Assembly (NCBI RefSeq): GCF_003001995.1
Contig: NZ_PVNB01000013.1
Coordinates: forward strand, 1 to 64,000
Length of the DNA stretch: 64,000 bases
Source of the DNA: Orenia metallireducens
GTDB taxonomy: Bacteria; Bacillota; Halanaerobiia; Halobacteroidales; Halobacteroidaceae
Reading direction: 5' to 3'
Shown: in pieces, positions 488 through 48,634 of the stretch
How positions within the stretch are numbered: position 1 is the first letter of the stretch
Layout: every line of letters begins with the position of its first letter
Program-made: the position numbers and the translations under genes
The notes under the pieces: generated by a model
The model's database searches: none
What the model was told of the DNA's origin: nothing
The model's input: the letters and a program-made list of their open reading frames with translations, nothing else

Positions 488-1570
488 TTATTTATTCAAT
501 ACTTCTTCAGGATTCCAACCATCAAGGATATTTTCAATAGTATACTTCTTGGCTTCTTCAGCAGTTAATTGCTTTCTTGACGGATTGATTACTGCACCTG
601 GTCCACTGTTCTGATATTCATAAAACCTTGCCTCAGTGGCCTTAAAACCTGACATATCTGTCCAGGGTTCAGCCTTGATATGGGCTCCCAGATAAGAGTC
701 TCTAACTACAACATTTGCGATTGCATATTTATCTCCACCTGGATGCCATGGTCTACCTAAGTATACTGTCCCCTCTGGAGCATCACTTAAGAATCTAGAG
801 TTGATAAACAGATATCCATAGGGCTCTTTGATCGGTGTACTGGCAGCACTGACATAGCCATTATTGACAGAAGAACCTCTATCTAAGGAATAGATTTCAC
901 AGTTATTAAAGACTGCCTGAGCAGCACCAAAGATAAAGTCAACATCACCTTCAATATAGCAGTTTTTGAAATATTGTCTGCCTGCATTGGCATATAGGGT
1001 GTCCTGATTACCTATAAATCGAACATTTTCAAAGATCATCTTATCACCTTGACTCTTGATTGCTACTGCTTGCCTCCCATCATCTTCTATACTCGGGTCA
1101 TTAAATGAGTTTTCAAAGGTCAGATTCTTAGCTATGAAATTATCAGCATACAAGAAAGCAGTTGAACTACCTGTAGTTCCATAGGTTCCACCAGCGGGCT
1201 TTGGCTTACTATTGTAATTATCATAGGTCAAGATAGTACCCTCTTTACTCTCCCCTATCATTCTGATAAAAGGCTTGCTACTAGTAATATTAATTACCTC
1301 TTTATAGATACCATCTTTGATAAAAATCTCTACAGGATAGATATTATTTTCTGAAACTGCATCAATTGCAGCTTGCACTGTCTTATAGTCTCCACTATTA
1401 TCCTTAGCAACAACTATTTTTGTTAAAGTTTCCGATGAATCTACATCTAATCTCTCTACCAACTCTACATCACCAACCTCTAATTTTATTCCATTAATAT
1501 CCTTAGAGTTATTCGCTACAACTTTGGCATAAACTCTAACCTGACCATAATAACCTATAGAATTAACCAC
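488..1570 (-). CDS. Pectinesterase (CE8) module, severed from its PL10 partner
   Basis: The ORF encodes a complete CE8 pectin methylesterase domain, which removes methyl groups from homogalacturonan. All signature blocks are present: GIYKEV, FIGNQDTLY (acid/base Asp), VDFIFG (nucleophile Asp) and YLGRPW (substrate Arg). Its first ~45 residues are not CE8 but a second copy of the PL10 C-terminus (VNSIGYYGQVRVYAKVV), as also found between PL10 and CE8 in the fusion at 4862-8581. The frame is open back to a TGA near 1652 but has no ATG there. The assigned GTG at 1570 has no Shine-Dalgarno, and there is no signal peptide. It is therefore probably a stranded module, poorly translated or not secreted. 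Family call is firm; whether it is expressed is doubtful. Confidence 0.8.
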   Translation of the reverse strand: MVNSIGYYGQVRVYAKVVANNSKDINGIKLEVGDVELVERLDVDSSETLTKIVVAKDNSGDYKTVQAAIDAVSENNIYPVEIFIKDGIYKEVINITSSKPFIRMIGESKEGTILTYDNYNSKPKPAGGTYGTTGSSTAFLYADNFIAKNLTFENSFNDPSIEDDGRQAVAIKSQGDKMIFENVRFIGNQDTLYANAGRQYFKNCYIEGDVDFIFGAAQAVFNNCEIYSLDRGSSVNNGYVSAASTPIKEPYGYLFINSRFLSDAPEGTVYLGRPWHPGGDKYAIANVVVRDSYLGAHIKAEPWTDMSGFKATEARFYEYQNSGPGAVINPSRKQLTAEEAKKYTIENILDGWNPEEVLNK

Positions 1571-1867
1571 ATCAAGCAGTGCCTGCGGATAACTGCCAGC
1601 CCAAGAGTAACCATATTGTCCCTCTTCTATTTCCCTTGAATCATGTTTTCAAATTTATCTAAATCTAATTTGTTTAGTAACTTTACATCACCATCTTTTA
1701 ATTTTATACCATTCATATTCTCAGAATTAGTCTTCACAACTTTGGCATAGACTCTACCATTACCATAATAGCCTATAGAATTAACCACATCAAGCAGTGC
1801 CTGTGGATAACTACCAGCCCAAGAATAACCATATTGTCTTTCTTCTTCTATCTTCCTTAAATCATGT
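1426..1867 (-). repeat. Imperfect ~221-bp tandem duplication of the PL10 C-terminal segment
   Basis: Two diverged copies of the segment coding for HD-RKIEE-QYGYSWAG..VVNSIGYYG..RVYAKVV..LD stand head to tail, copy 1 about 1647-1867 and copy 2 about 1426-1646. Both begin with ACATGATT. The offset of 221 bp is not a multiple of three, so copy 2 is read one frame away from copy 1; the PL10 ORF then meets a TAG within copy 2. This arrangement separates the lyase and esterase modules. Confidence 0.8.
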
Positions 1868-4446
1868 CTAATAATTCCATCCATTCCTGAGAAAATAGGT
1901 TTCATAGTCTCAATATCATAAAATCTATACCAGGTATTGCTATTTGGATCTTCATAGAAAAATTTCTTTGCTGGATCATTTCTAATATATTTTACACCTT
2001 CTATTTTAGCTTCCTCAAACCACCTTAAAGCACCGTTGACAGCTCTTTGAATTTCAGGGGTCTGATTAGGTCTATCCATCAAGAATTTGACTATTCCTAC
2101 TGATTCAGATCCTGAAATAGATGTATGCTCAAAGACACGGGCAGGTAATGGTTCATAAGTCTTAGGATCATGCTGAGCACACCATGCTGTCAGCTTTCCA
2201 TCTATCTTGACTTGAGACTTAAGAATATAGTCAACACCTTTCTCCATAGATATACTTATCTTATCAAGGTAATCTTGATCAACTAAATCACTATCAAAAG
2301 GAAACTCATGATTCAAAATATCATCAAACATATTCAAGACATTAATCATCGCATTATCATTGTAAGTGACATAGTTTGAATAATATATTATTTCGTCTGG
2401 ACGAGCCCTTTTTGGATATACCTGCGGGAAACCACCGGTTTCATACTGCATCGTAAATAGGAAATCAAGACCTTTCAAAAAGCTCTTCTTTAACTTAGGT
2501 ATTTTAGTCTCTCTATAAACTTTAGCAATAAATCTCATCTGAGTAATGGTTGCACCATTATCAATTGAACCTAATTCTTCACCATTTGGACCAAATTGTT
2601 CAGTTCTTTCAGCTTTTCCATCCCAGCGTGTCTTATACTTCTCTTCCATATGCTTAGTCCATCCACCATGGTCCATCTGCCATGATACAATATTTAAGGC
2701 AGCTTCTTTAGCCATATCTTTATCCATAATAACTTCTGGAGCTAATTTTTTAGTATTAAGTCTAGCCTCTTGATCTAAATCATCTGCAAGCTTATAAACT
2801 ATAACAGTATTGCCCTCTTTATTTCTACCTACAGCAGCCTCTTTAATTACTAAATAATCTGTTAAATCAGGTTTTAAAGCTTGCCAGTCATTCTTAGGAG
2901 CTACTATTCTAATATCATTTACATCAAACTCTTTAAAAGCTCCATCTAATGTTACTAAAACTATATTAGCAGTTACTGCTTTAGCAGATTTAATAGTAAC
3001 TTCTTCTGCTCTTTTCTCAACTTGCGTCTGAGCAGGCTCTCCTTCTATAAGAAGCCCTTTTCTTGCTAATTCTTCTAACATAAACTTATTAACAATATCA
3101 GAAACTTCCACAACTTGAATTAATTTAGCAAGAGGATCAACGTTCTCTTGAATCATATTTGAAGAAAGGACTCTTAAATGATCTATATTAGCTCCACCAC
3201 TAGCTCCTGTTGCTGTTGCTCTAATTACATTCTTACCTGCTTTAAGCATTACTGTTGTTTTAGTTAGTTGCCAATTATCCCAGGCACCTGTTGGATTAAA
3301 AGCTAAATTAGACTTTATTACATCTCTATTGACCTTAATTTCAGCTGGTCTATTCTCTGCAGAACCATTTCCATATCTGAATTGAAGTGCATATCTGCCA
3401 GTATCTGGAACATCTACAGTCCATTCCAGATATCCTCCTGGCTGATTTGGCTTATAATCTACAAAACCTAGTCCTGTATAACCTACATGCTCAGTAGCTA
3501 CAATAGTTCCAGATGATGATACGACATCTTCTGCTTCAAATAACTCATCAAAAGCATAATAGACTCTTAAATTGTCTATATTAGCTCCACCACTAGATCC
3601 TGTAGCTGTAGCTCTTATGATATTTTTGCCTGCTTTTAAGCTAACTGCTGTTTGGGTTGTTAACCAATTATCCCAAGCACCTGTTGGATTAAAAGCTAAA
3701 TTAGGCTCTACTACATTCCCATTAACCTTAACTTCAGCTGCTCTATTCTCTGCAGAACCATTTCCATATCTAAATTGGAGTGCGTATTCCCCAGAAGCTG
3801 GAACATCTACAGTCCATTCAAGATATCCTCCTGGCTGATTTGGCTTATAATCTACAAAACCTAACCCTGTATATCCTACATGTTCAGTAGCTACAATAGT
3901 TCCAAAACCTTTAGCATCCTCACTCTCTAAAACTTCATCAAAGTAATTAGAATCATAATATAATTTGAGATGATCTATATTTGCACCACCACTAGAGCCT
4001 GTGGCTGTGGCTCTTATGACATTTTCACCTGCTTTTAGATTAGCAACTGTTTTAGTTTGCTCCCAATTGTTCCAAGCTCCCGTTGGGTTAAAGGCTAAAT
4101 TAGGCTCAACTGTATCACCGTTAACCTTAATTTCAGCTGGTCTATTCTCAGAAGCACCACTTGCATAATTAAATTCAAGTACATAATCACCAGCGATTGG
4201 AACATCTACAATCCATTCAATATATCCCCCTGGCTGATTTGGTTTGTAATCGACAAATCCTGTTCCTGTATATCCTACATGCTCAGTAGCTATAATAGCT
4301 GCTGATAATGTTGATGCATCTTCTGCTTCATAAATTTTCGCTCCATCTGTAGTAATAGCTTTAGATTGAGCTTCAACTATAGATACTGGAATTGTGGTCA
4401 AAAGTAAAAAACAGATAATTAATAACAAAATATTTCTTTTTTCCAT
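1627..4446 (-). CDS. Secreted pectate lyase, PL10, with three CBM35/CBM6-like modules
   Basis: The 939-residue protein starts with a signal peptide (ILLLIICFLLLTTIPVSIVEA). Three ~125-residue CBM35/CBM6-like repeats follow (about 36-420), each with YEAED, GYTG.GFVDY, GGY.EW.VD, FNPTGAW..W and GGANIDHL. A linker domain (~430-560) leads to a PL10 pectate lyase (~565-890) with GGW.KHMEE, IDNGATITQM, YNDNAMINV, TAWCAQHDPKTYEP and SGSESVGIVKF. PL10 enzymes cleave polygalacturonate by beta-elimination. The final ~50 residues match the PL10-CE8 junction of the paralogue at 4862-8581, and the ORF ends in the duplicated segment, so a CE8 module has been lost from the chain. The start is set by GAAAGGGTG upstream of ATG. 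Export then attachment to pectin by the CBMs is inferred. Confidence 0.92.
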   Translation of the reverse strand: MEKRNILLLIICFLLLTTIPVSIVEAQSKAITTDGAKIYEAEDASTLSAAIIATEHVGYTGTGFVDYKPNQPGGYIEWIVDVPIAGDYVLEFNYASGASENRPAEIKVNGDTVEPNLAFNPTGAWNNWEQTKTVANLKAGENVIRATATGSSGGANIDHLKLYYDSNYFDEVLESEDAKGFGTIVATEHVGYTGLGFVDYKPNQPGGYLEWTVDVPASGEYALQFRYGNGSAENRAAEVKVNGNVVEPNLAFNPTGAWDNWLTTQTAVSLKAGKNIIRATATGSSGGANIDNLRVYYAFDELFEAEDVVSSSGTIVATEHVGYTGLGFVDYKPNQPGGYLEWTVDVPDTGRYALQFRYGNGSAENRPAEIKVNRDVIKSNLAFNPTGAWDNWQLTKTTVMLKAGKNVIRATATGASGGANIDHLRVLSSNMIQENVDPLAKLIQVVEVSDIVNKFMLEELARKGLLIEGEPAQTQVEKRAEEVTIKSAKAVTANIVLVTLDGAFKEFDVNDIRIVAPKNDWQALKPDLTDYLVIKEAAVGRNKEGNTVIVYKLADDLDQEARLNTKKLAPEVIMDKDMAKEAALNIVSWQMDHGGWTKHMEEKYKTRWDGKAERTEQFGPNGEELGSIDNGATITQMRFIAKVYRETKIPKLKKSFLKGLDFLFTMQYETGGFPQVYPKRARPDEIIYYSNYVTYNDNAMINVLNMFDDILNHEFPFDSDLVDQDYLDKISISMEKGVDYILKSQVKIDGKLTAWCAQHDPKTYEPLPARVFEHTSISGSESVGIVKFLMDRPNQTPEIQRAVNGALRWFEEAKIEGVKYIRNDPAKKFFYEDPNSNTWYRFYDIETMKPIFSGMDGIIRHDLRKIEEERQYGYSWAGSYPQALLDVVNSIGYYGNGRVYAKVVKTNSENMNGIKLKDGDVKLLNKLDLDKFENMIQGK

Positions 4447-4451
4447 CTTTT

Positions 4452-4565
4452 CACCCTTTCAAATTCAAAATCATCAGATAAGCCATATACTTATCTGCTC
4501 TTCAAAAATCAATACAATACTATATCATAGAATTTTTACAGGGTTATCTTCTTATATTAATTATA
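4452..4565 (-). promoter_or_regulatory. -10 box and structured leader that can mask the ribosome-binding site
   Basis: A TATAAT is seen on the minus strand at 4560-4565; no good -35 is evident. Just downstream, 4530-4553 is a 24-nt element identical to 8694-8717 in front of the paralogue. Within it ACCCT and AAATTC can pair with GAATTT and AGGGT at 4453-4466, the latter being the Shine-Dalgarno. A separate hairpin AGATAAG/CTTATCT (4476-4496) lies inside the closed loop. Translational control by an RNA switch or binding protein is inference. Confidence 0.5.
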
Positions 4566-4704
4566 CTAGTGAAATTTTTATTTAATATTTTAAAATCAAA
4601 CAGAACAGATTTATTAATTCAAATCATTCCATTATTCCTTAAGATAATCATTATAAAAGGATATTCATAAATTTTCACAAATCATCTAAAAGATTTTTAT
4701 TCTA

Positions 4705-4734
4705 TATCTAGCTACTAATATTAGTAGCTAGATA
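4705..4734 (-). terminator. Perfect 30-bp palindrome, probable terminator of the PL10-CE8 gene
   Basis: TATCTAGCTACTAAT and its exact reverse complement are fused without a spacer. It lies ~130 bp past the stop codon at 4862. The flanks are AT-rich but no long T-run follows, so it could also be a 3' stabiliser. Confidence 0.5.
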
Positions 4735-4861
4735 ATTTTATAAATCTCTATTATCATCTGTTTTTCAGCTATGTCAATCCCTAGCTAAAAACTCAAACTA
4801 TTTCTTGTTTTATATAGTTGCTCTTATTGTTATATTAAATTTATAACCTTATATTTACATT

Positions 4862-7800
4862 CTATTGATTAGGGTTCCAGCCAGCAAGAACATTCTCAAT
4901 AGTATACTTCTGTGCTTCTTTGGCAGTTAATTGATTTCTGGATGAATTAACTACTGCACCTGGTCCACTATTATTATATTCATAGAATCTTGCATTCTCA
5001 GCTTTAAAGCCTGACATATCTGTCCATGGTCTAGCTTTAATATGAGCTCCAAGATAAGAATCTCTAAAGACAACACTTGCTATTGCATATTTATCGCCAC
5101 CTGGATGCCATGGTCGACCTAAATATACTGTACCATCTGGTGCATTGCTTAGCAGCGTTGAATTTATAAAGAGATATCCATAAGGCTCTTTGATCGATGT
5201 ACTTGCAGCAGTAACATATCCATTATTTGAAGATGAACCTCTATCTAGTGAATAAATCTGGCAATTATCAAATACTGCCTGAGCATCACCAAAGATAAAG
5301 TCAACATCTCCTTCAATATAACAATTATTAAAGTATTGTCTTCCTCCACTAGTATATAAAGTATCTTGGTTACCTATAAAACGAACATTTTCAAAATACA
5401 TCTTGTCACCTTGAGTCTTGACTGCTACTGCTTGAGTTCCTCCACCTGCTACACTTGCTTCATCAAAAGAATTTTCAAAAGTAAGGTTCTTAGCTACAAA
5501 ATTATCTGCATATAAGAAAGCACTTGCACTTCCTGTAGTTCCATAAGTTCCACCAGCAGGTTTCTTTTTCTTATTATAATTATCGTAAGTTAATACAGTA
5601 CCTTCCTTGCTCTCTCCTATCATTCTGATAAAAGGCTTACTACTAGGAATGTTAACTACCTCTTTATAGATACCATCCTTAATAAATATCTCTACTGGAT
5701 AGATATTATTTTCAGGAACTGCATCAATTGCAGCTTGCACTGTCTTATAGTCTCCACTATTATCCTTAGCAACAACTATTTTGGCTATAGCCTCAGCTTT
5801 AGCTAAATCTAATTTCTTTACTAACTCTACCTTGCCATCTTTTAGTTTTGTTACATCCTTATCTTTTGTATCATCATCCATAACTTTAGCATAAACTCTA
5901 CCTCGACCATAATAACCTATAGAATTTACTACATCAAGAAGTGCCTGTGCATAGTCTCCACCCCAAGAATAACCATATTGTCTCTCTTCTTCTACCTTTC
6001 TAAGGTCATGCTTAATTACTCCATCACGCCCTGAGAAAATAGGTTCCATAGTCTTTAAATCATAAAATCTATACCAAGTATTACTATTAGGAACATCATC
6101 ATAGAAGAATATTTTCAGTGGATCATTTCTAACATATTTTACATTTTCAAGTTTAACTTCCTCAAACCATTTTAAAGCACCATTTACAGCTCTTTTAATT
6201 TCAGGGGTCTGATTAGGTCTAGCCATTAGGAATTTAACTATTCCTACTGATTCCTTACCTGAAATAGATGGATGCTCATAAGAACGTGCATATCGTGGTT
6301 CATAAGTCTTAGGATCATGTTGGGCACACCATGCTGTCAGTTTTCCATCTACCTTAATTTGAGACTTAAGGATAAAGTCAACACCCTTTGCTAAAGAGTC
6401 CTCAACCTTAGCAATATTATCTCGATCAAGCAAATCACCATCAAAAGGATATTCTCTACTAGCAATATCATCAAGCAGATTCATTACATTAATCATAGCA
6501 CCATCATTAAATGTAACAAAATTTGAATAGTATATTCTCTGATCAGGTCTACCTCGTCTAGGATATACTTGTGCAAAACCACCAGTAGGATACTGTAATT
6601 TATACAAGAAGTCTAATCCTTTTAAGAAGCTTTTCTTTAATTCAGGCATCTTAGTCTCTCTATAAACCTTAGCAATAAAACGCATTTGAGTAATAGTCGC
6701 ATCATTATCAATTGTACCTAATTCTTCACCGTTTGTACCAAACCAGTGAGAACGTTTAGCTTTTCCATTCCAACGTGTTTTATATTCTTCTTCCATATGT
6801 TTATCCCAGCCACCATGGTCCATCTGCCATGACACAATATCTAAAGCAGCTTTTTTAGCAGCCTCTTTATCCATGGTAACTTGTGGTTCTTTTTTAGTAT
6901 TAAGTCTAGCATTTTCATCTAAATTTTCTGCTAACTGATAAATTATAGCAGTATTACCCTCTTTATTTGTACCTACAGCAGCCTGCTTGATTAATAAGTA
7001 ATCTGTCAAATCAGGATTTAAAGCATCCCAATCATTCTGTGGAGCTGCTATTCTAACATTATTTACATCAAAATCTTTAAAAGCTCCATCTAGTGTTACT
7101 AAAACTAAATTAGCAGACAATGCTTGAGCAGATTTAATAGTAACTGCTTCTGCTTTTTTCTCAACTTGTGCTTGAGAAGACTGTCCATCTACAAAAAGTC
7201 CTTTTCTTGATAATTCATCTAGCACAAGCTTATTAACTATATCAGAAGCTTCTACAACTTCAATTGATTTAGCAAGAGGATCAACATTCTGTTGAATCAT
7301 ATTTGCAGAAAGAATCCTTAAATGGTCTATATTAGCACCACCACTAGATCCTGTTCCTGTTGCTCTAATTACATTCTCACCTTTATTAAGAACTACTGTT
7401 GCTTGAGTTAATTGCCAATTATCCCAAGCTCCTGTGGAATCAAAGGCTAACTCAGGCTCTACTATATCACCATTAACCTTAATTTCAGCTGGTCTGTTTG
7501 CTGAAGCACCATTTCCATATCTGAATTGAAGCATATATTTTCCATCAACTGGAATATCAGCAGTCCACTCCAGATATCCTCCTGGCTGATTTGGCTTATA
7601 ATCTACAAAGCCTGTTCCAGTATATCCTTTATGCTGAGTAGCTACAATAGTTCCAGCAGATGAGGACACATCCTCTGCCTCAAGTAACTCATCAAAAGCA
7701 TAACAGACTCTTAAATGATCTATATTAGCACCACCACTAGCACCTGTTGCTGTTGCTCTAATTACATTCTTACCTGCCTGTAAGTTAACTGTTGTTTCTG

Positions 7801-8581
7801 TTGTTACCCAATTATCCCAAGCTCCTGTTGAATCAAAAGCTAAGTTAGGCTCTACTACATCACCATTAACCTTAATTTCAGCTGGTCTGTTGGCTGAAGC
7901 ACCATTTCCATATCTAAATTGAAGTGTATATTTACCAGCAGCTGGAATATCTACAGTCCATTCCAGATACCCTCCTGGCTGATTTGGCTTGTAATCTACA
8001 AAGCCTGTTCCAGTATAACCTTCATGCTCAGTACCTACAATAGTACCAGATCCTTTAGCCTTCTCAGCCTCTAAAATCTGATCAAAATAATTAGAATTAT
8101 ATTCTAATTTAAGATGATCTATATTAGCACCACCACTAGAACCTGTTGCTGTTGCTCTAATTACATTCTTACCTGCTCTTAAAGTAGTAACTGTTTGAGT
8201 TTGCTTCCAACTATCCCAAGCCCCTGTTGGATTAAAAGCTAAATTAGGCTCTACTACATGACCGTTAACCTTAATTTCAGCTGGTCTATTCTCTGAAGCA
8301 CCACTTGCATATCTAAATTGAAGTTCATACTCTCCAGCCTTTGGAACATCTACAATCCATTCCAGATATCCTCCTGGCTTATTTGGATTGTAATCTACAA
8401 AGCCTAGTCCTGTATACCCTTGATGTTCAGTAGCTACAATAGTTCCAGCTGATGAGGACGCATCTTCTGCTTCATAAATTTTTCCTCCATCCCCAGCAGC
8501 CAAAACCTCAACTGTAAATGCTGAAATCATAATAGAAAGTAACAAACATACAATTAACACCAAACTACTACTTTTTTTCAT
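4862..8581 (-). CDS. Secreted bifunctional pectate lyase (PL10) - pectinesterase (CE8) with three CBM35/CBM6-like modules
   Basis: This 1239-residue protein combines, in order: signal peptide (1-29), CBM35/CBM6-like modules at about 36-160, 168-293 and 299-423, a linker/beta domain (430-565), PL10 pectate lyase (570-900) and CE8 pectinesterase (933-1239). PL10 blocks include GGWDKHMEE, IDNDATITQM, FNDGAMINV and TAWCAQHD. CE8 residues are Asp1073 (NQDTLY), Asp1094 (VDFIFG) and Arg1156 (YLGRPW). De-esterification and beta-elimination in one chain would let it attack methylated pectin at the surface of plant debris. It is a tandem paralogue of 1627-4446, with closely similar CBM arrays and identical leader core. 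Start follows GAAAGGGTG. Domain calls are strong; exact CBM family (35 versus 6) is not settled by eye. Confidence 0.93.
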   Translation of the reverse strand: MKKSSSLVLIVCLLLSIMISAFTVEVLAAGDGGKIYEAEDASSSAGTIVATEHQGYTGLGFVDYNPNKPGGYLEWIVDVPKAGEYELQFRYASGASENRPAEIKVNGHVVEPNLAFNPTGAWDSWKQTQTVTTLRAGKNVIRATATGSSGGANIDHLKLEYNSNYFDQILEAEKAKGSGTIVGTEHEGYTGTGFVDYKPNQPGGYLEWTVDIPAAGKYTLQFRYGNGASANRPAEIKVNGDVVEPNLAFDSTGAWDNWVTTETTVNLQAGKNVIRATATGASGGANIDHLRVCYAFDELLEAEDVSSSAGTIVATQHKGYTGTGFVDYKPNQPGGYLEWTADIPVDGKYMLQFRYGNGASANRPAEIKVNGDIVEPELAFDSTGAWDNWQLTQATVVLNKGENVIRATGTGSSGGANIDHLRILSANMIQQNVDPLAKSIEVVEASDIVNKLVLDELSRKGLFVDGQSSQAQVEKKAEAVTIKSAQALSANLVLVTLDGAFKDFDVNNVRIAAPQNDWDALNPDLTDYLLIKQAAVGTNKEGNTAIIYQLAENLDENARLNTKKEPQVTMDKEAAKKAALDIVSWQMDHGGWDKHMEEEYKTRWNGKAKRSHWFGTNGEELGTIDNDATITQMRFIAKVYRETKMPELKKSFLKGLDFLYKLQYPTGGFAQVYPRRGRPDQRIYYSNFVTFNDGAMINVMNLLDDIASREYPFDGDLLDRDNIAKVEDSLAKGVDFILKSQIKVDGKLTAWCAQHDPKTYEPRYARSYEHPSISGKESVGIVKFLMARPNQTPEIKRAVNGALKWFEEVKLENVKYVRNDPLKIFFYDDVPNSNTWYRFYDLKTMEPIFSGRDGVIKHDLRKVEEERQYGYSWGGDYAQALLDVVNSIGYYGRGRVYAKVMDDDTKDKDVTKLKDGKVELVKKLDLAKAEAIAKIVVAKDNSGDYKTVQAAIDAVPENNIYPVEIFIKDGIYKEVVNIPSSKPFIRMIGESKEGTVLTYDNYNKKKKPAGGTYGTTGSASAFLYADNFVAKNLTFENSFDEASVAGGGTQAVAVKTQGDKMYFENVRFIGNQDTLYTSGGRQYFNNCYIEGDVDFIFGDAQAVFDNCQIYSLDRGSSSNNGYVTAASTSIKEPYGYLFINSTLLSNAPDGTVYLGRPWHPGGDKYAIASVVFRDSYLGAHIKARPWTDMSGFKAENARFYEYNNSGPGAVVNSSRNQLTAKEAQKYTIENVLAGWNPNQ

Positions 8582-8931
8582 ATTTTCACCCTTTCAAATT
8601 CAAATTAATTTGATCAACCTTGAAAATTACTAGATAAGTCATCAACTTAGTTTCAAGAAAAGCAATCTTAATTTAAAGAATGCTATATCATATGAATTTT
8701 TACAGGGTTATCTTCTTATATTGATTATAGATAGTAAGATTCTTATTTGATATTTTAAAATCAAGCAGAAAGTATTCATTAATCCAAACTCTTCTACTAT
8801 GCCTTATGATAATCACCATAATCTACTTTTTTCACACTTTAAAAAGATATAATCAAGATCACAATATTTTACAGCACCAACTCCATTAAGACCTAACTAC
8901 ATATTGACTTCTAGCTAGTAATAAATCTATT
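8582..8931. other. Intergenic region: leader of the PL10-CE8 gene
   Basis: The right-hand side of 4862-8581 is leader and promoter DNA (8582-8729) like that of its paralogue. The remainder (8730-8931) is AT-rich and shows no gene or clear terminator for the polygalacturonase that ends at 8932. Confidence 0.6.
8587..8729 (-). promoter_or_regulatory. -10 box and structured leader, second copy
   Basis: The TATAAT is at 8724-8729, followed by the 24-nt element at 8694-8717, identical to 4530-4553. ACCCT...AAATTC (8694-8708) can pair with GAATTT...AGGGT at 8588-8601, which contains the Shine-Dalgarno. The intervening sequence differs from the paralogue but also forms a hairpin (CTTGAAA/TTTCAAG, 8619-8657). 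Conserved ends with a variable interior suggest a functional RNA fold; this is inference. Confidence 0.5.
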
Positions 8932-12761: not shown

Positions 12762-13724
12762 TTATCTAGTAACTACCTTCTTATCACCTGTAAATATTTC
12801 AACCTCTTCCATAGTCGGTAAGCCTTCCATATCACCAAGTACTGTGATAGCATAAGCACCTACTGCATTAGCCAATTTAGTAGATTCTACTAAGTCATAG
12901 CCCTTGAGCTGTCCTGCAATAAAGCCTGCTGCAAAGCCATCACCTGCTCCTACAGTGTCAACAACCTTCTCTACTTTATAGCCTGCAACTCTTTTCATAC
13001 TATCTTGATCAGCTACTAAAGCACCCTCTGCTCCCAGCTTAACTATTACAATCTCGGCACCTAAATTGAGAATCTCTTGAGCAATCTCTTCAGGGTCAGT
13101 AGTTCCTAATAACAGCTCCCCCTCTTCAATCCCTGGCAAGACAATATCAGACTTACTAAATAAATCCAACATCACTTCCTTCATCTCTTCTTGACTATCC
13201 CATAATTTCAAACGTAAGTTAGGATCAAAGGAGACTTTAACATCATTCTCTTTGGCTACCTTAATTGCTTCAAGTGCAGCCTCATAGCATGATTGGCTTA
13301 GAGCTGGAGTGATCCCTGTTAAATGTAGATACTTAGCTTGAGCAATATACTCTTGATCTAAATCCTCTGGTGTTAGCTTACTTGCAGCAGAACCATGACG
13401 ATAATAATAGACCTTACTTTCATTTAAAACACTTCTCTCCTTAAACATCAGACCTGTTGGGGCTTTATCAGTAAAGATAACTCTAGAAGTATCTACACCC
13501 TCTCCCTGGATAAAGGCTTTAATATATTGACCATGGGGATCAGCACCTAATTTACTAATCCAAGCTGAATGGTGACCTAATCTTGCTAGCCCGATTGCAA
13601 AGTTGCTCTCTGCCCCACCTAACTGCTTCTTATAATCATAAATATACTTTAAATTCCCTGTCTCTCGTGGGTTCATTAATATCATTGTTTCACCTAATGT
13701 CACTACTTCAACCACATAATACAT
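12762..13724 (-). CDS. kdgK: 2-keto-3-deoxygluconate (KDG) kinase, PfkB family
   Basis: The 320-residue ribokinase-fold enzyme phosphorylates KDG to KDPG. It shows the PfkB N-terminal block GGAESNFAIGLARLG and the C-terminal block DTVGAGDGFAAGF, with the catalytic Asp in GAGD. Start ATG follows AAAGGGG. It is followed after 16 bp by the aldolase gene, and preceded by a hairpin repeat that separates it from uxaA. Function as KDG kinase is well supported by this neighbourhood; the PfkB family also includes fructokinases. Confidence 0.92.
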   Translation of the reverse strand: MYYVVEVVTLGETMILMNPRETGNLKYIYDYKKQLGGAESNFAIGLARLGHHSAWISKLGADPHGQYIKAFIQGEGVDTSRVIFTDKAPTGLMFKERSVLNESKVYYYRHGSAASKLTPEDLDQEYIAQAKYLHLTGITPALSQSCYEAALEAIKVAKENDVKVSFDPNLRLKLWDSQEEMKEVMLDLFSKSDIVLPGIEEGELLLGTTDPEEIAQEILNLGAEIVIVKLGAEGALVADQDSMKRVAGYKVEKVVDTVGAGDGFAAGFIAGQLKGYDLVESTKLANAVGAYAITVLGDMEGLPTMEEVEIFTGDKKVVTR

Positions 13725-26459: not shown

Positions 26460-27779
26460 TTATCTGCCAAGTATACTATTTGCTTCTTTTCTAAACAATT
26501 TTGCTCCTTCTTGCGGACTGATCTGCTTATAAATAACCTTCCAATAAACCTCTTCATAGGCTTTGACCACTTCTTGATATGCAGGTGGTTGAGGTGGAAG
26601 CACAGAACCAGCATTTGCCGCAGCTTTATCAATAAAGCCAAATACCATCTGATCATACTTACCTGCATCCATCTTCACTGCTGATTTAACCTTACTCTCA
26701 ACTGGAGTTCCTCTATCTGTTCCTAAAATCTTACCAGCCTCTACATTATGGAACCAGAAGTTAAGGAATTTCATTACTTCTTCTGGATGCTCTGTATTAC
26801 TACTTACTGTAAGTAACATTGCCGGCTTTAAGAATCTACCCTCTTGAGTTTGGTCTTTAGCTGTAGGGTATAGGAATGGAGTTAACATCTTACCAGCACC
26901 TGTTGAAATTGCAGCAAGCTGATTACTCCAGTAATTTGTTGCAGTTGCAGCCTTTTGTTTAGTTACTAAATCCTCCTCAATAGCACGTGCAGACTCTTGT
27001 CTTTGTGATGCATTCTGTACAGCACCTGATTTCATAAGGTCTAAATCCATCTTCATAAAGTCTACAAATAACTGATCATTGTCATAGCCTAAGCTCTTAC
27101 CATCTTCAGCAAAGAAATCTGCTCCATGCTGTCTTAAATAAACTGTAAAACCTGTACCATCTTGTTGAGCCGTTGGTGTTGAAGCACCAAAGATACCTAG
27201 TCTGTCATGAAGCTTTTTAAACATCTCTGCTCTATCTTCCCAAGTATCATCTGAACTTGGATAAGCAACACCAGCCTTATCAAATAATTCTTTGTCATAA
27301 TAACCTGCTGGAGCATTAACTCCTGTAGCCAATCCTATTTGCTTACCATAAACCTGACCCATTTGAAGATATACATCAGCAATATTAGTAGTATCCAAAC
27401 TACCATCCTTTATATAAGGGCTTAAATCTAGTAACTGACCATTTTCAGCATAGCCACTAATATATTTACGAACATGTTGAATAACATCAGGTAAGTTCTT
27501 TCCTGCAGCCTGAGCATTCATCTTATCCCAATATCCACCCCAACCTGTATATTCAGGTTGAACTTTAATGTTAGGATATTTCTGCTCAAATAACTTGATT
27601 ACCTTTAAGGTTCTCTCATGTCTACTTTGAGAACCCCACCAAGCAAAACGGATTGTTACGGTACCATCATCTTCTTTCTTATCTCCTCCGCCAAAGATCC
27701 ACCAAGCACCTGCAGTCATCGATAAAGAAAAAACTAATACCAAAGCCAAAGTTGTTATAATGGTTTTCTTCTTCAACAT
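26460..27779 (-). CDS. Extracellular/periplasmic solute-binding protein for sugars (family 1)
   Basis: The 439-residue protein has an N-terminal signal segment (LALVLVFSLSMTAGA) and binding-protein motifs such as VTIRFAWWGSQSRHERTLKV and EQKYPNIKVQPEYTGWGGYW. There is no cysteine at the end of the signal segment, so it is not a lipoprotein. A soluble binding protein implies a periplasm, in line with the outer membrane of Halanaerobiales. It should deliver oligogalacturonide or a similar sugar to the permeases downstream. ATG follows AAAGGGGGAAG. Upstream is a 1.45-kb non-coding stretch with operators. Confidence 0.92.
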   Translation of the reverse strand: MLKKKTIITTLALVLVFSLSMTAGAWWIFGGGDKKEDDGTVTIRFAWWGSQSRHERTLKVIKLFEQKYPNIKVQPEYTGWGGYWDKMNAQAAGKNLPDVIQHVRKYISGYAENGQLLDLSPYIKDGSLDTTNIADVYLQMGQVYGKQIGLATGVNAPAGYYDKELFDKAGVAYPSSDDTWEDRAEMFKKLHDRLGIFGASTPTAQQDGTGFTVYLRQHGADFFAEDGKSLGYDNDQLFVDFMKMDLDLMKSGAVQNASQRQESARAIEEDLVTKQKAATATNYWSNQLAAISTGAGKMLTPFLYPTAKDQTQEGRFLKPAMLLTVSSNTEHPEEVMKFLNFWFHNVEAGKILGTDRGTPVESKVKSAVKMDAGKYDQMVFGFIDKAAANAGSVLPPQPPAYQEVVKAYEEVYWKVIYKQISPQEGAKLFRKEANSILGR

Positions 27780-27872: not shown

Positions 27873-27987
27873 TCTTCTTATAATCTTATTATTAATCCAC
27901 TTAAATAACTGATTGAATTATATTATACCCTTATAATCTTATTAATTCCTTCTAAATATTTATCCTTAATCCCCCCCTCTTAAATGT

Positions 27988-28014: not shown

Positions 28015-28121
28015 CTTATAAACTTATTAAAAATTATTATATATAATTTTATACTAAAAATGGCCTTATATGTTTTTATTTAGCCACTTTTATCACTAAA
28101 GAGTACTTTTAAGTCATAAAC

Positions 28122-28173
28122 AAAAAATCCCGCTAAACTTATACTAATAAATAGCATAAGTTTTCACAGGATT
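28122..28173 (-). terminator. Terminator-like hairpin inside the long leader
   Basis: On the minus strand AATCCtgtgAAAACTTATgC folds back on GtATAAGTTTagCGGGATT and is followed by TTTTTTGTTT. The 5' arm overlaps a diverged copy (28158-28181; 18 of 24 identical) of the leader element found before both pectinase genes. It lies ~450 nt after the promoter and ~340 nt before the binding-protein ATG, so it could end a small RNA or act as an attenuator. Confidence 0.55.
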
Positions 28174-28251
28174 ATAATCTTATATCACTTATTCTGCACT
28201 ATCACTTATAAAATCTCATGTTTTCTTATCTCTTTAAACCTTATAGGTATG

Positions 28252-28273
28252 CTATGGAAATTGTTTTCCATAG
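28252..28273. promoter_or_regulatory. LacI-type operator 1
   Basis: CTATGGAAA-TTGT-TTTCCATAG has perfect 9-bp arms. The core GGAAATTGTTTTCC is shared with 28446-28459 and resembles the site before the LacI gene at 30286. Confidence 0.6.
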
Positions 28274-28444: not shown

Positions 28445-28463
28445 CGGAAATTGTTTTCCATAG
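28445..28463. promoter_or_regulatory. LacI-type operator 2
   Basis: CGGAAATTGTTTTCCATAG contains the same 14-bp core as operator 1. The two sites are 190 bp apart, downstream of the promoter at 28623-28651, allowing looping or roadblock repression. Confidence 0.6.
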
Positions 28464-28622: not shown

Positions 28623-28651
28623 AGTATAACTTACAATCTCATAATTGTCAA
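28623..28651 (-). promoter_or_regulatory. Sigma-A promoter directed at the sugar importer
   Basis: TTGACA (28646-28651) and TATACT (28623-28628) are spaced by exactly 17 bp. The predicted leader to the binding-protein ATG is about 840 nt, which is exceptionally long. Additional weaker promoters nearer the gene are possible. Confidence 0.65.
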
Positions 28652-29227: not shown

Positions 29228-30262
29228 TTAAAGTAAATCCCTTACAGAACCTCTTTCAATCAAGCTAATCTGAACATTGGCAGGATCGTCTACAATTTTA
29301 TTGCCATGTAATTTATTAATTAAATATTCTCCAATCTGCTTTCCTAATTTATATACTGGTAAGGAGATTGTTGTTAAAGGAGGATAAGAGTATTTGGCTT
29401 CAGGAAGATCATCAACCCCAACCACCGATACATCTTGGGGAACTTTAATTCCTTGATTATTCAACTCCCACATCAAACCTAAAGCAGTGGCATCATTGGC
29501 AGCCACTACAGCCGTTACTTCATCTATATTATCTAATAGTTCTAAAGCCGCTTTTCTTCCACCTTCAAAGCTAAAGTCACTTCGAATTATGAGCCTATTA
29601 TCAACCTCTATACCTCTACATTTCAAGGCCTTTTTAAAACCTTCTGATCTCTGCTGGCTAGTATTTAAAATCTTTGGACCAGCAACATAGGCTATCTTTC
29701 GGTGACCTTTATTCAATACATAATCAGTAATAGTCTGGGCAGCTAACTCATTGCCAAGCTCTATATTCACTATTTCAAAAGGATGTGGTGTTACTCCTAC
29801 AATAACTGTCCCCTGCTTCTTTAAATTCTGAACATACTCCCCCATTATTTTTCGATATTCCTCATCTAAGAGAGTACTTCCTGCAAAGACAACTGCATCT
29901 GCTCTATTGACCTTGAGCATATTGACTGAATGTAGCTCCTTCTCTATACCCCGATTAGTATTATAGATATTAATGATATAGTCATAGTCAGAAATGAATT
30001 CTTCAATCCCCTTAACCATTTGAGCAAAATAGGAATCACATATATCATGGACAATTACCCCTATAATATGGGACTTATCACTCTTTAATCCTTGAGCAAT
30101 TCTATTAGGCCTAAAATTTAACTCTTTGATAGCCTCCTTAACTAAAGCCTTGGTCTTACTGCTTACTGGATGGTCACTATTATTAATAACTCTTGATACT
30201 GTCGTTGGAGAGCATCCAGCTAATTTAGCAACATCTTTAATGGTTATTTCACTCTTCTCCAT
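29228..30262 (-). CDS. LacI family transcriptional regulator
   Basis: The 344-residue protein starts with a classical LacI helix-turn-helix (ITIKDVAKLAGCSPTTVSRV) and hinge helix (RPNRIAQGLKS), then a periplasmic-binding-protein-like sugar sensor (ending GVDDLPEAKYSYPPLTTISL). Its own promoter carries AGAAAACGTTTTCT, similar to operators before the sugar importer, so it probably represses itself and the importer, and may be a KdgR-like regulator answering to KDG or oligogalacturonides. The specific effector is inferred from context only. Confidence 0.92.
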   Translation of the reverse strand: MEKSEITIKDVAKLAGCSPTTVSRVINNSDHPVSSKTKALVKEAIKELNFRPNRIAQGLKSDKSHIIGVIVHDICDSYFAQMVKGIEEFISDYDYIINIYNTNRGIEKELHSVNMLKVNRADAVVFAGSTLLDEEYRKIMGEYVQNLKKQGTVIVGVTPHPFEIVNIELGNELAAQTITDYVLNKGHRKIAYVAGPKILNTSQQRSEGFKKALKCRGIEVDNRLIIRSDFSFEGGRKAALELLDNIDEVTAVVAANDATALGLMWELNNQGIKVPQDVSVVGVDDLPEAKYSYPPLTTISLPVYKLGKQIGEYLINKLHGNKIVDDPANVQISLIERGSVRDLL

Positions 30263-47599: not shown

Positions 47600-47640
47600 G
47601 AAAAGGTAAAAGAGCAGCAATGCTGCTCTTTTACCTTTTC
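47600..47640 (-). terminator. Terminator of the BofC-like gene
   Basis: GAAAAGGTAAAAGAGCAGCA and its reverse complement are separated by one base, ending in CTTTTC/CTTTTACC. It overlaps the stop codon at 47639. Confidence 0.75.
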
Positions 47641-48634
47641 ATTCATTTATAATACTAACTAAACCCTCTAAAACAGTTAGTAGCTCTTCTTGATTTGCCA
47701 CCTCTATCCCTTTAAGCAGTTCCTTCTTATCCTTTTCCGATAGCTTCTTGACTGGAATATCCTTTCTTAATTCAACTAACTCCTTAGCTTCTAAGCTATC
47801 CCCTTTATAGATTGCTACATATCCATCCTTAACACCTAAAAACAACTTATTCTTTATCTCTAGTTGCTCTTTATCTTCACTATTATCCTCTTGACTCTCT
47901 GATTCTAAACTATCATCACCTTGTTTCTTCAATTCCTGCTCTTTATCCTCATTGTCTGTATCGTCTTCATCTAAAGCTTGATTATTATCTATTCTCTCTT
48001 TATCTTTATCCTGCTCTGAACTATCCTCATTTATATCATCTAAAATCGACTGATTATTGCTATCTTCATTCAACCAAGAGAAGAAGTCATCTGTATCTGA
48101 TGTTGAATCTTCTATCTTAGTCTCTTCTTCTTTAGCTGATCTCTTCTGCTGATTCTTCACAAGATCTTCTTCATTGATTTCGATAATTATCTCATCTGAT
48201 TTTGTCTTATTCTTGTTATCCTCCATCTTCTCCTTAGCAACCTCTAAGATTGATTCTAGCAATCGGTTCTCTTGCTTAGTATTTTTAGAAGAATGATTTA
48301 ATCTCTCTAAAAGATATTTAAGCCCTTCACTTAACTTGATATTAGTAGCTGCCTCTAGCTTCTGATTTATCCTCTTCTCTTCTTTTTTAACCAACTCTAA
48401 GATGGTTAAATTCTTTTCAATCTCCTCTTCAACCTCTGAAACCTTAGCAACATCCTCCTGCTTTTCATCTCCTAAATTATCCTCTTGCTGTTGATAAAAG
48501 TCCTCCTCCACTAGTTCTTCTCTATTTTTGTTAGGCTTCTTATTATTTATAGTTGTATCTAAAATTAGATAAGTTAGACCTGCAATCATCCCAATTATAA
48601 TAGGAATTATCATCAGCTTGTTTAGGTGCTTCAA
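47639..48634 (-). CDS. Membrane-anchored acidic protein with BofC-like C-terminal domain
   Basis: The 331-residue protein has an N-terminal membrane helix (LMIIPIIIGMIAGLTYLIL), a long acidic and low-complexity middle (~40-255, rich in Glu, Asp, Ser and Asn) and a C-terminal domain (~265-331) with LFLGVKDGYVAIYKGD, KLSEKDKKELLKGIEV and LLTVLEGL. This end resembles the BofC C-terminal domain of spore-formers. TTG start follows AAAGGAGG, which is fully masked by a 16-bp hairpin. Function not known; a sporulation or envelope signalling role is inference. Confidence 0.75.
   Translation of the reverse strand: MKHLNKLMIIPIIIGMIAGLTYLILDTTINNKKPNKNREELVEEDFYQQQEDNLGDEKQEDVAKVSEVEEEIEKNLTILELVKKEEKRINQKLEAATNIKLSEGLKYLLERLNHSSKNTKQENRLLESILEVAKEKMEDNKNKTKSDEIIIEINEEDLVKNQQKRSAKEEETKIEDSTSDTDDFFSWLNEDSNNQSILDDINEDSSEQDKDKERIDNNQALDEDDTDNEDKEQELKKQGDDSLESESQEDNSEDKEQLEIKNKLFLGVKDGYVAIYKGDSLEAKELVELRKDIPVKKLSEKDKKELLKGIEVANQEELLTVLEGLVSIINE

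Follow-up and report, generated by a model that had tools for sequence, protein, structure and literature searches.

TATAAG-like repeats and hairpins in the leaders of carbohydrate-utilisation genes of Orenia metallireducens: a candidate transcript-level element

The sequence block shared by the leaders of two tandem pectinase genes of O. metallireducens is, with a probability that we put at about one half, a member of a transcript-level leader-RNA element of carbohydrate-utilisation genes, composed of a factor-bound repeat array and an output hairpin. Action at the RNA level, a trans-acting factor, the direction of its effect and the signal are the parts of this reading that we infer. Judging by the sequences compared, the array of TATAAG-like repeats, which lies 5' of the hairpin and was absent from the initial annotation of this DNA, seems to be the more conserved part. 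That annotation had tied the element to pectinases, a restriction that has to be dropped: members or repeats also precede sugar-uptake, porin and other carbohydrate genes.

The pectin locus and the leaders of its paired pectinase genes

The window, meaning the whole stretch of DNA analysed, is 64 kb long and lies on contig C13 (104 kb) of a 4.1-Mb genome assembled in 95 contigs. It holds a pectin-utilisation locus with a pectinesterase, two CBM-pectate lyases, a GH28, KDPG aldolase and kinase, uronate enzymes, a sugar ABC transporter, and LacI and AraC regulators. Gene A (1627–4446, minus strand) encodes a CBM35/CBM6-pectate lyase of 939 aa (Pfam Pec_lyase, CBM_6 and CBM_35), and its tandem paralogue, gene B (4862–8581, minus strand), a CBM-pectate lyase-pectinesterase of 1,239 aa. 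The two are identical at 73% of amino acids, 81% of nucleotides and 71% of four-fold sites. Since they are tandem paralogues whose conservation reaches about 130 nt further upstream of the leaders, the identity of the leaders is by itself little proof. The start region of the pectinesterase ORF (488–1570) resembles a pectate-lyase C-terminus (69% to residues 857–935, with stops; 1424–1657), and positions 488–4446 have the appearance of the fused gene at 4862–8581 in split form. A 13-bp palindromic hairpin with a T-run on the plus-strand side lies between the stop of gene B and leader A (4705–4734) and is probably a terminator separating the paralogues.

The 24-nt block AAGAAGATAACCCTGTAAAAATTC reported as common to both leaders is indeed identical at 4530–4553 (leader A) and 8694–8717 (leader B) on the minus strand; the identity actually spans 29 nt (AATATAAGAAGATAACCCTGTAAAAATTC) and is followed by a 1-nt indel and then by TATGATATAG. 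The leaders also share a 22-nt block (TTTGAATTTGAAAGGGTGAAAA), again identical, that spans the Shine-Dalgarno (SD) sequence. Allowing up to three mismatches, the 4.1-Mb genome holds no copy of AAGAAGATAACCCTGTAAAAATTC besides those of leaders A and B, and a genome search for the SD block likewise gave these two leaders only. Across 84,980 species genomes, a 21-nt core taken from the 24-nt block also matched only A and B. The blocks upstream of these leaders (the −130 region) have no motif in common with other intergenic DNA of the window (p 0.81–0.99).

The pairing proposed in the initial annotation, of ACCCU and AAAUUC with AGGGU and GAAUUU of the SD region, is present in both minimum-energy folds, and the resulting helix (P1) encloses different inner hairpins, the interiors of the two leaders differing as described. 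In the fold of leader A, the 5' strand of P1 is ACCCTGTAAAAATTC (4530–4544), the 3' strand, which holds the SD sequence, is GAATTTGAAAGGGT (4453–4466), and the inner hairpin is CAGATAAG..CTTATCTG (4475–4497), all on the minus strand. The corresponding strands of P1 in leader B are at 8694–8708 and, with the SD sequence, at 8588–8601 (minus strand). Folding energies are better than those of most shuffled sequences, with z-scores of −3.4 and −2.1 (1/200 and 6/200 shuffles equal them). P1 is still formed in transcripts of 244 and 265 nt, the total energies of which are close to those of shuffles (z −0.9 and 0.0). A shuffled 5' block matches the observed pairing with the SD block in 2 out of 5,000 cases, and shuffled whole leaders pair equally well in 50 (A) and 124 (B) out of 5,000. 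Among 43 window genes, A and B rank 4th and 5th for the strength of leader–SD pairing, and about 10% of window genes have a pairing this strong. The evidence for selection that these two leaders provide on their own is moderate, as far as sequence comparison can tell. The strongest pairing of the 43 is that of a BofC_C-domain ORF (47639–48634), whose SD region forms a 17-bp helix with upstream sequence (−22.9 kcal/mol); its start codon may be misplaced.

Further members of the element

The initial annotation held that a lack of homologues outside the two paralogues would speak against a functional leader. We built a covariance model from A and B, then from A, B and C, and then from A–D, and such homologues exist: members C and D, in which the helix is kept, member E, and repeats in relatives. 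Member C (28121–28194, minus strand) was detected with the A+B model at an E-value of 0.0047 in the window; it was also the best match of an unfiltered scan (0.0036, the next being 0.19). The gene downstream encodes an ABC sugar-binding protein (26460–27779, minus strand; Pfam SBP_bac_1), homologues of which in relatives likewise carry repeats. Member C folds, with compensatory pairs, into a terminator-like hairpin AATCCTGTGAAAACTTATGC..GTATAAGTTTAGCGGGATT followed by a T-run (28122–28173, minus strand; z −6.4, 0/200 shuffles as good), in which the 5' strand is AAUCCUGUGAAAACUU and the 3' strand AAGUUUAGCGGGAUU. All 11 P1 pairs are retained, three of them via changes on both sides.

Member D (L185:3375–3462, contig C24) was found with the A+B+C model, at E-values of 0.00037 over the loci examined and 0.0115 genome-wide. 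The member precedes a porin gene in a second pectin locus, which also holds two further copies of the sugar-binding protein encoded downstream of C, and it ends in a T-run (fold z −5.8). Both C and D have the features of a terminator-attenuator, i.e., a stable stem with a T-run (tails TTTTTT/TTTTT) between a promoter-like sequence and a gene, and both have CCTGTNAAAAYT in common with A and B in addition to the repeats and the helix. The alignment of A–D has 43 of 44 P1 cells paired, with three pairs changed on both sides (5 cells), in four sequences that include two recent paralogues and were aligned by fitting to the model. Its pairing score exceeds those of all 500 shuffles, and shifting the partner by ±1 leaves 59–62% of the cells paired. 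In the hairpin, CCUGUNAAAA is retained on the 5' strand whereas the partner sequence on the 3' strand changes, which suggests a second partner for the 5' strand.

Member E (L298:~13110–13201), which lies 5' of an ABC permease gene, consists of four repeats followed by UUCCUGUAU...AUACAGGAA and a tail rich in U; its hairpin resembles the terminators of C and D, but the T-run is broken. A terminator-like hairpin at L224:7121–7185 (minus strand), after TTAATATAAGATAAT, is a possible weak member (E 0.49). Between a consensus promoter and member D, we observed a GC-richer and apparently structured non-coding stretch (L185:2930–3130; GGGTAGTCTTC...GAGTACCC...GGGGTGAAACC) with no Rfam match. Intergenic elements with inverted ends of the type (A)GTGACACTTT / AAAGTGTCG, at L185:10850–10990 and L298:13340–13460, perhaps form a small MITE-like repeat family.

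The repeat array and the genes that carry it

In A–D, three TATAAG-like hexamers with a period of 8–9 nt lie directly 5' of the helix and are followed by CCTGT. They read TATAAT-TAA-TATAAG-AA-GATAAC in leader A (4543–4565, minus strand), AATAAG-TGA-TATAAG-AT-TATAAT in member C (28171–28193, minus strand) and TATAAG-TC-TATAAG-CC-TATAAG in member D; the three repeats of leader B are similar to those of A (8707–8729, minus strand). Leader C has further copies of AATAAGNNTATAAG at 28015–28028, 27930–27943 and 27877–27890 (minus strand). Across sites, arrays comprise 2–5 copies of the hexamer. A possible short stem around the repeats can be recognised by eye in three relatives' leaders (UACAG/CUGUA; L188, L190 and L192) and in C (UGCAG/CUGUG); in A, B and D it is weak or missing.

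Four genomes from another family within the class have homologous sugar-binding-protein genes whose leaders contain TATAAG-like pairs with NCTGTA after them; a further pair lies closer to the start codon. A fifth leader of this kind (L192), that of a more distant binding protein, is a pattern match only. The pattern NATAA-N2/3-NATAA-N-CTGT occurs 9 times in 705 kb (0.25 expected), and all 9 matches are in sense orientation; they lie 92–387 nt upstream of the genes of A–D and of five ABC sugar-binding-protein genes in relatives.

The pair TATAAG-N2-TATAAG was found 19 times against 1.2 expected (about 16-fold) in 1.49 Mb of this genome, a sample of about a third that is not random, since it consists of pectin loci, contig starts and early contigs; in relatives the counts are 5 and 0.2 (0.72 Mb). 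Pairs separated by 0, 1, 3, 4 or 5 nt are at background level, so that the enrichment is restricted to a spacer of 2. These patterns were set after the first examples had been seen, and ORFs stand in for genes. A slightly wider form of the pair has 43 sites in this genome, which are not independent because overlapping repeats of one array were counted separately; 37 of them lie 5' of the next gene in sense orientation, one is antisense and two fall inside ORFs. Pattern matches at L297:18816 and in L318, L326 and L340 were discounted because they lie inside genes. A looser pair pattern in codirectional intergenic DNA gave 62 sense and 13 antisense matches, and the single hexamer is likewise sense-biased (318 versus 149).

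Sites lie at anything from about 10 nt to several hundred nt from the start codon. Arrays reach into the SD sequence at five loci (L334, L301, L305, L267 and L336; e.g., L334:12244, L301:5832 and L305:17583), and sites that abut the SD cannot be promoters. A hairpin is missing from many repeat sites, among them ones that touch the SD, and array and hairpin may therefore be separable features. Among the 16 further genes with a site (those outside the window and member D), 11 are carbohydrate genes, compared with 2 of 20 random control genes with comparable upstream space (Fisher 4e-4). The 11 encode a CBM35 protein, a GH4, PTS IIB and IIC components, a GH5-CBM35, an ABC permease, a GH130, a GntP, two sugar-binding proteins and a LacI; the two controls are an amylase and, on a generous count, a DeoC/LacD-type aldolase.

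Promoters and LacI-like operators

The TATAAT that precedes the identical block, a possible promoter −10 box, is probably repeat 1 of the array. We rejected a role as −10 box because it has no −35 box in register and because the strand of the hairpin adjoins the repeats or overlaps them. Better candidates lie about 85 nt upstream. These are, by consensus match only, GTGAAA-17-TATAAT for A (4678–4650, minus strand) and GTGAAA-18-TATCAT for B (8835–8806, minus strand). Promoter-like TTGACA-17-TATAAT/TATACT sequences lie upstream of members C and D, the candidate for C (TTGACA-17-TATACT; consensus match) being at 28623–28651 on the minus strand, about 430 nt 5' of the member. Where the sequence of the relatives' leaders reaches far enough, they have TTGACA-17-TATAAT promoters 287–395 nt and LacI-like operators 212–352 nt upstream of the start codon; if these promoters are used, the relatives' repeats are transcribed.

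In the window, a LacI-like operator, GGAAAACAATTTCC, is found at 28446–28459, with a second copy at 28256–28269 (minus strand), and it and its variants also occur at L185:3332 and in leaders L186, L188, L190 and L192. Operators of this type lie downstream of the promoters of sugar-binding-protein and porin genes, and a LacI gene lies just upstream of the operator-bearing genes in the window (29228–30262) and in L190. On this sequence evidence, the LacI encoded beside the GGAAAACAATTTCC operators is a probable repressor of the pectin locus.

Searches in other genomes, Rfam and the literature

Scans of 59 genomes with the A+B model gave weak AT-rich matches only, which we judged to be chance. 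The A+B+C and A–D models returned the same four members over 13 and 28 genomes, the remaining matches being judged chance as well; in the latter search, this genome had A–D only and the 27 others no convincing member. We found no comparable leader outside this genome among Pec_lyase relatives in the order and the class, and the leader of a pectate lyase relative in Gracilibacillus suaedae (47% identity) did not match. Hence the pattern that emerges from these sequences is one of repeats beyond this genome and a hairpin seen within it. Members A, B and C in the window had no Rfam match at the gathering score, and neither did the locus of D. A permissive Rfam search of region C and of the relative L188 gave none at a family threshold (the best, PreQ1, had 19 bits for a cut-off of 39). 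Our search of the literature on pectin or galacturonate riboswitches, UAUAAG leaders and carbohydrate regulons in the class found nothing matching.

Proposed mechanism

The element would have two parts. The first is an array of UAUAAG-like hexamers with a period of 8–9 nt, ending in N-CUGU. It probably serves as a single-stranded RNA site to which a trans-acting factor binds; an oligomeric RNA-binding protein that reports the carbon source is the most likely candidate. The second part, in hairpin-bearing members only, is a hairpin whose 5' strand starts at CCUGU straight after the array. In leaders A and B the 3' strand of the hairpin is the SD region, and the folded form would switch translation off; members C, D and E have a hairpin of this kind with U-rich sequence after it, and there the folded form would stop transcription. 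A factor bound to the array and CUGU would hold the hairpin open and the gene on. The UACAG/CUGUA or UGCAG/CUGUG stem around the repeats could be a competing structure, and at hairpin-less sites beside the SD the factor could directly affect ribosome access.

If this reading is correct, it describes a regulon-wide layer of post-initiation control for the use of plant polysaccharides in this class, in which one repeat code feeds both transcriptional and translational outputs; the literature that we searched describes no such post-initiation system for the class. Sense-strand TATAAG-N2-TATAAG in leaders would then be a sequence handle for finding both the RNA-binding factor and the genes that it controls. 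A broader proposal is more tentative, and we hold it somewhat doubtful: that the class has a so far undescribed RNA-level carbon control, a counterpart of Crc/Hfq or TRAP, in which a UAUAAG code marks dozens of sugar genes for an RNA-binding protein acting through terminator or ribosome-masking hairpins.

Alternative explanations

We regard it as unlikely that the direct repeats are a DNA operator, bound by a carbohydrate regulator (an activator or a roadblock repressor) in the transcribed leader, with hairpins that are incidental or separate. Such a model would suit the LacI-like operators in the same leaders, the AraC and LacI genes within the window and the second repeat sites of relatives, which have no obvious hairpin. 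However, it does not account well for the nearly uniform orientation of sites relative to the gene (37 to 1), for sites placed immediately before or overlapping the SD, for a spacing of 8–9 nt that is not a helical turn, or for repeats that abut or overlap the 5' strand of the hairpin in A–E.

We give little credence to a general translation or stability element of AT-rich leaders, such as a standby site, an S1-type A/U-rich enhancer or a 5' stabiliser. Some sites do touch the SD (those at L334:12244, L301:5832 and L305:17583), and the single hexamer is itself sense-biased, but enrichment at one spacing only, the bias towards carbohydrate genes and the terminators in C, D and E argue against it. 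Equally improbable is an ordinary tandem duplication, in which a 3.9-kb unit was copied with its promoter and the SD pairs by chance with an ACCCT resembling an anti-SD. The divergence of A and B, their similar upstream DNA and the frequency of equally strong leader–SD pairing in the window agree with it; yet C and D, which lie outside the duplication, have the repeats and CCTGTNAAAAYT and preserve the helix by compensatory changes, and together with E and the relatives' leaders they largely refute it. A small-molecule riboswitch, in which a sugar acid or an oligosaccharide would be sensed directly by the leader, is very improbable in spite of the pectin context of A–D and of the terminator and SD-masking outputs from one element type that are typical of riboswitches, because there is no structured aptamer between the ends, the interiors are unrelated, Rfam gives no match, and the functions of the genes with sites range over mannan, beta-glucoside and gluconate, which makes a single ligand unlikely.

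Returning to the transcript-level element, the initial annotation had left the choice between a functional RNA switch and a protein-binding leader. The data support a transcript-level element with a conserved outer helix, and the more conserved array 5' of the hairpin fits a protein-binding leader better than a riboswitch; a switch responding to galacturonate or KDG, having neither an aptamer-like core nor an Rfam match, is not supported, nor is it needed to explain the data.

Comparison with known systems

Like riboswitch leaders of Rfam, the element feeds a terminator or an SD-masking helix from one element type; unlike them, it has no aptamer core or Rfam match. The ribonucleic antiterminator (RAT) of BglG/SacY/LicT is a hairpin of about 30 nt with its own consensus that overlaps the 5' strand of a terminator. 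The proposed element resembles it in placing a protein-binding RNA over the 5' strand of a terminator for sugar-gene antitermination, but the part that would be recognised looks like unstructured repeats, and the proteins scanned in the loci include no BglG-type protein.

The Crc/Hfq motif, AAnAAnAA, is a short repeated A-rich single-stranded RNA, often near the ribosome-binding site. We know of no Crc in this bacterium. Crc/Hfq and its catabolite-activity motif are a control system of Pseudomonas (e.g., PMC4063720, PMC8266614). The similarity lies in short repeats in the leaders of many genes for carbon uptake and catabolism (here, 11/16 versus 2/20 controls), whereas our sites have UAUAAG with fixed 2-nt (sometimes 3-nt) spacers, and some copies are coupled to terminator or SD-masking hairpins. 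The repeats are TATAAG-N2-TATAAG at a variable distance from the start codon, not AAnAAnAA in the translation initiation region.

TRAP (MtrB) binds GAG/UAG repeats, about 5 nt apart and in around 11 copies, in the trp leaders of Bacillus. Our arrays share with these leaders short, apparently single-stranded RNA repeats that have 2–3-nt spacers and overlap, or lie immediately 5' of, a helix that would act as terminator or SD mask. They are not tandem NAG triplets at about 5 nt in around 11 copies, but UAUAAG hexamers with a period of 8–9 nt, in 2–5 copies and with sugar genes as targets.
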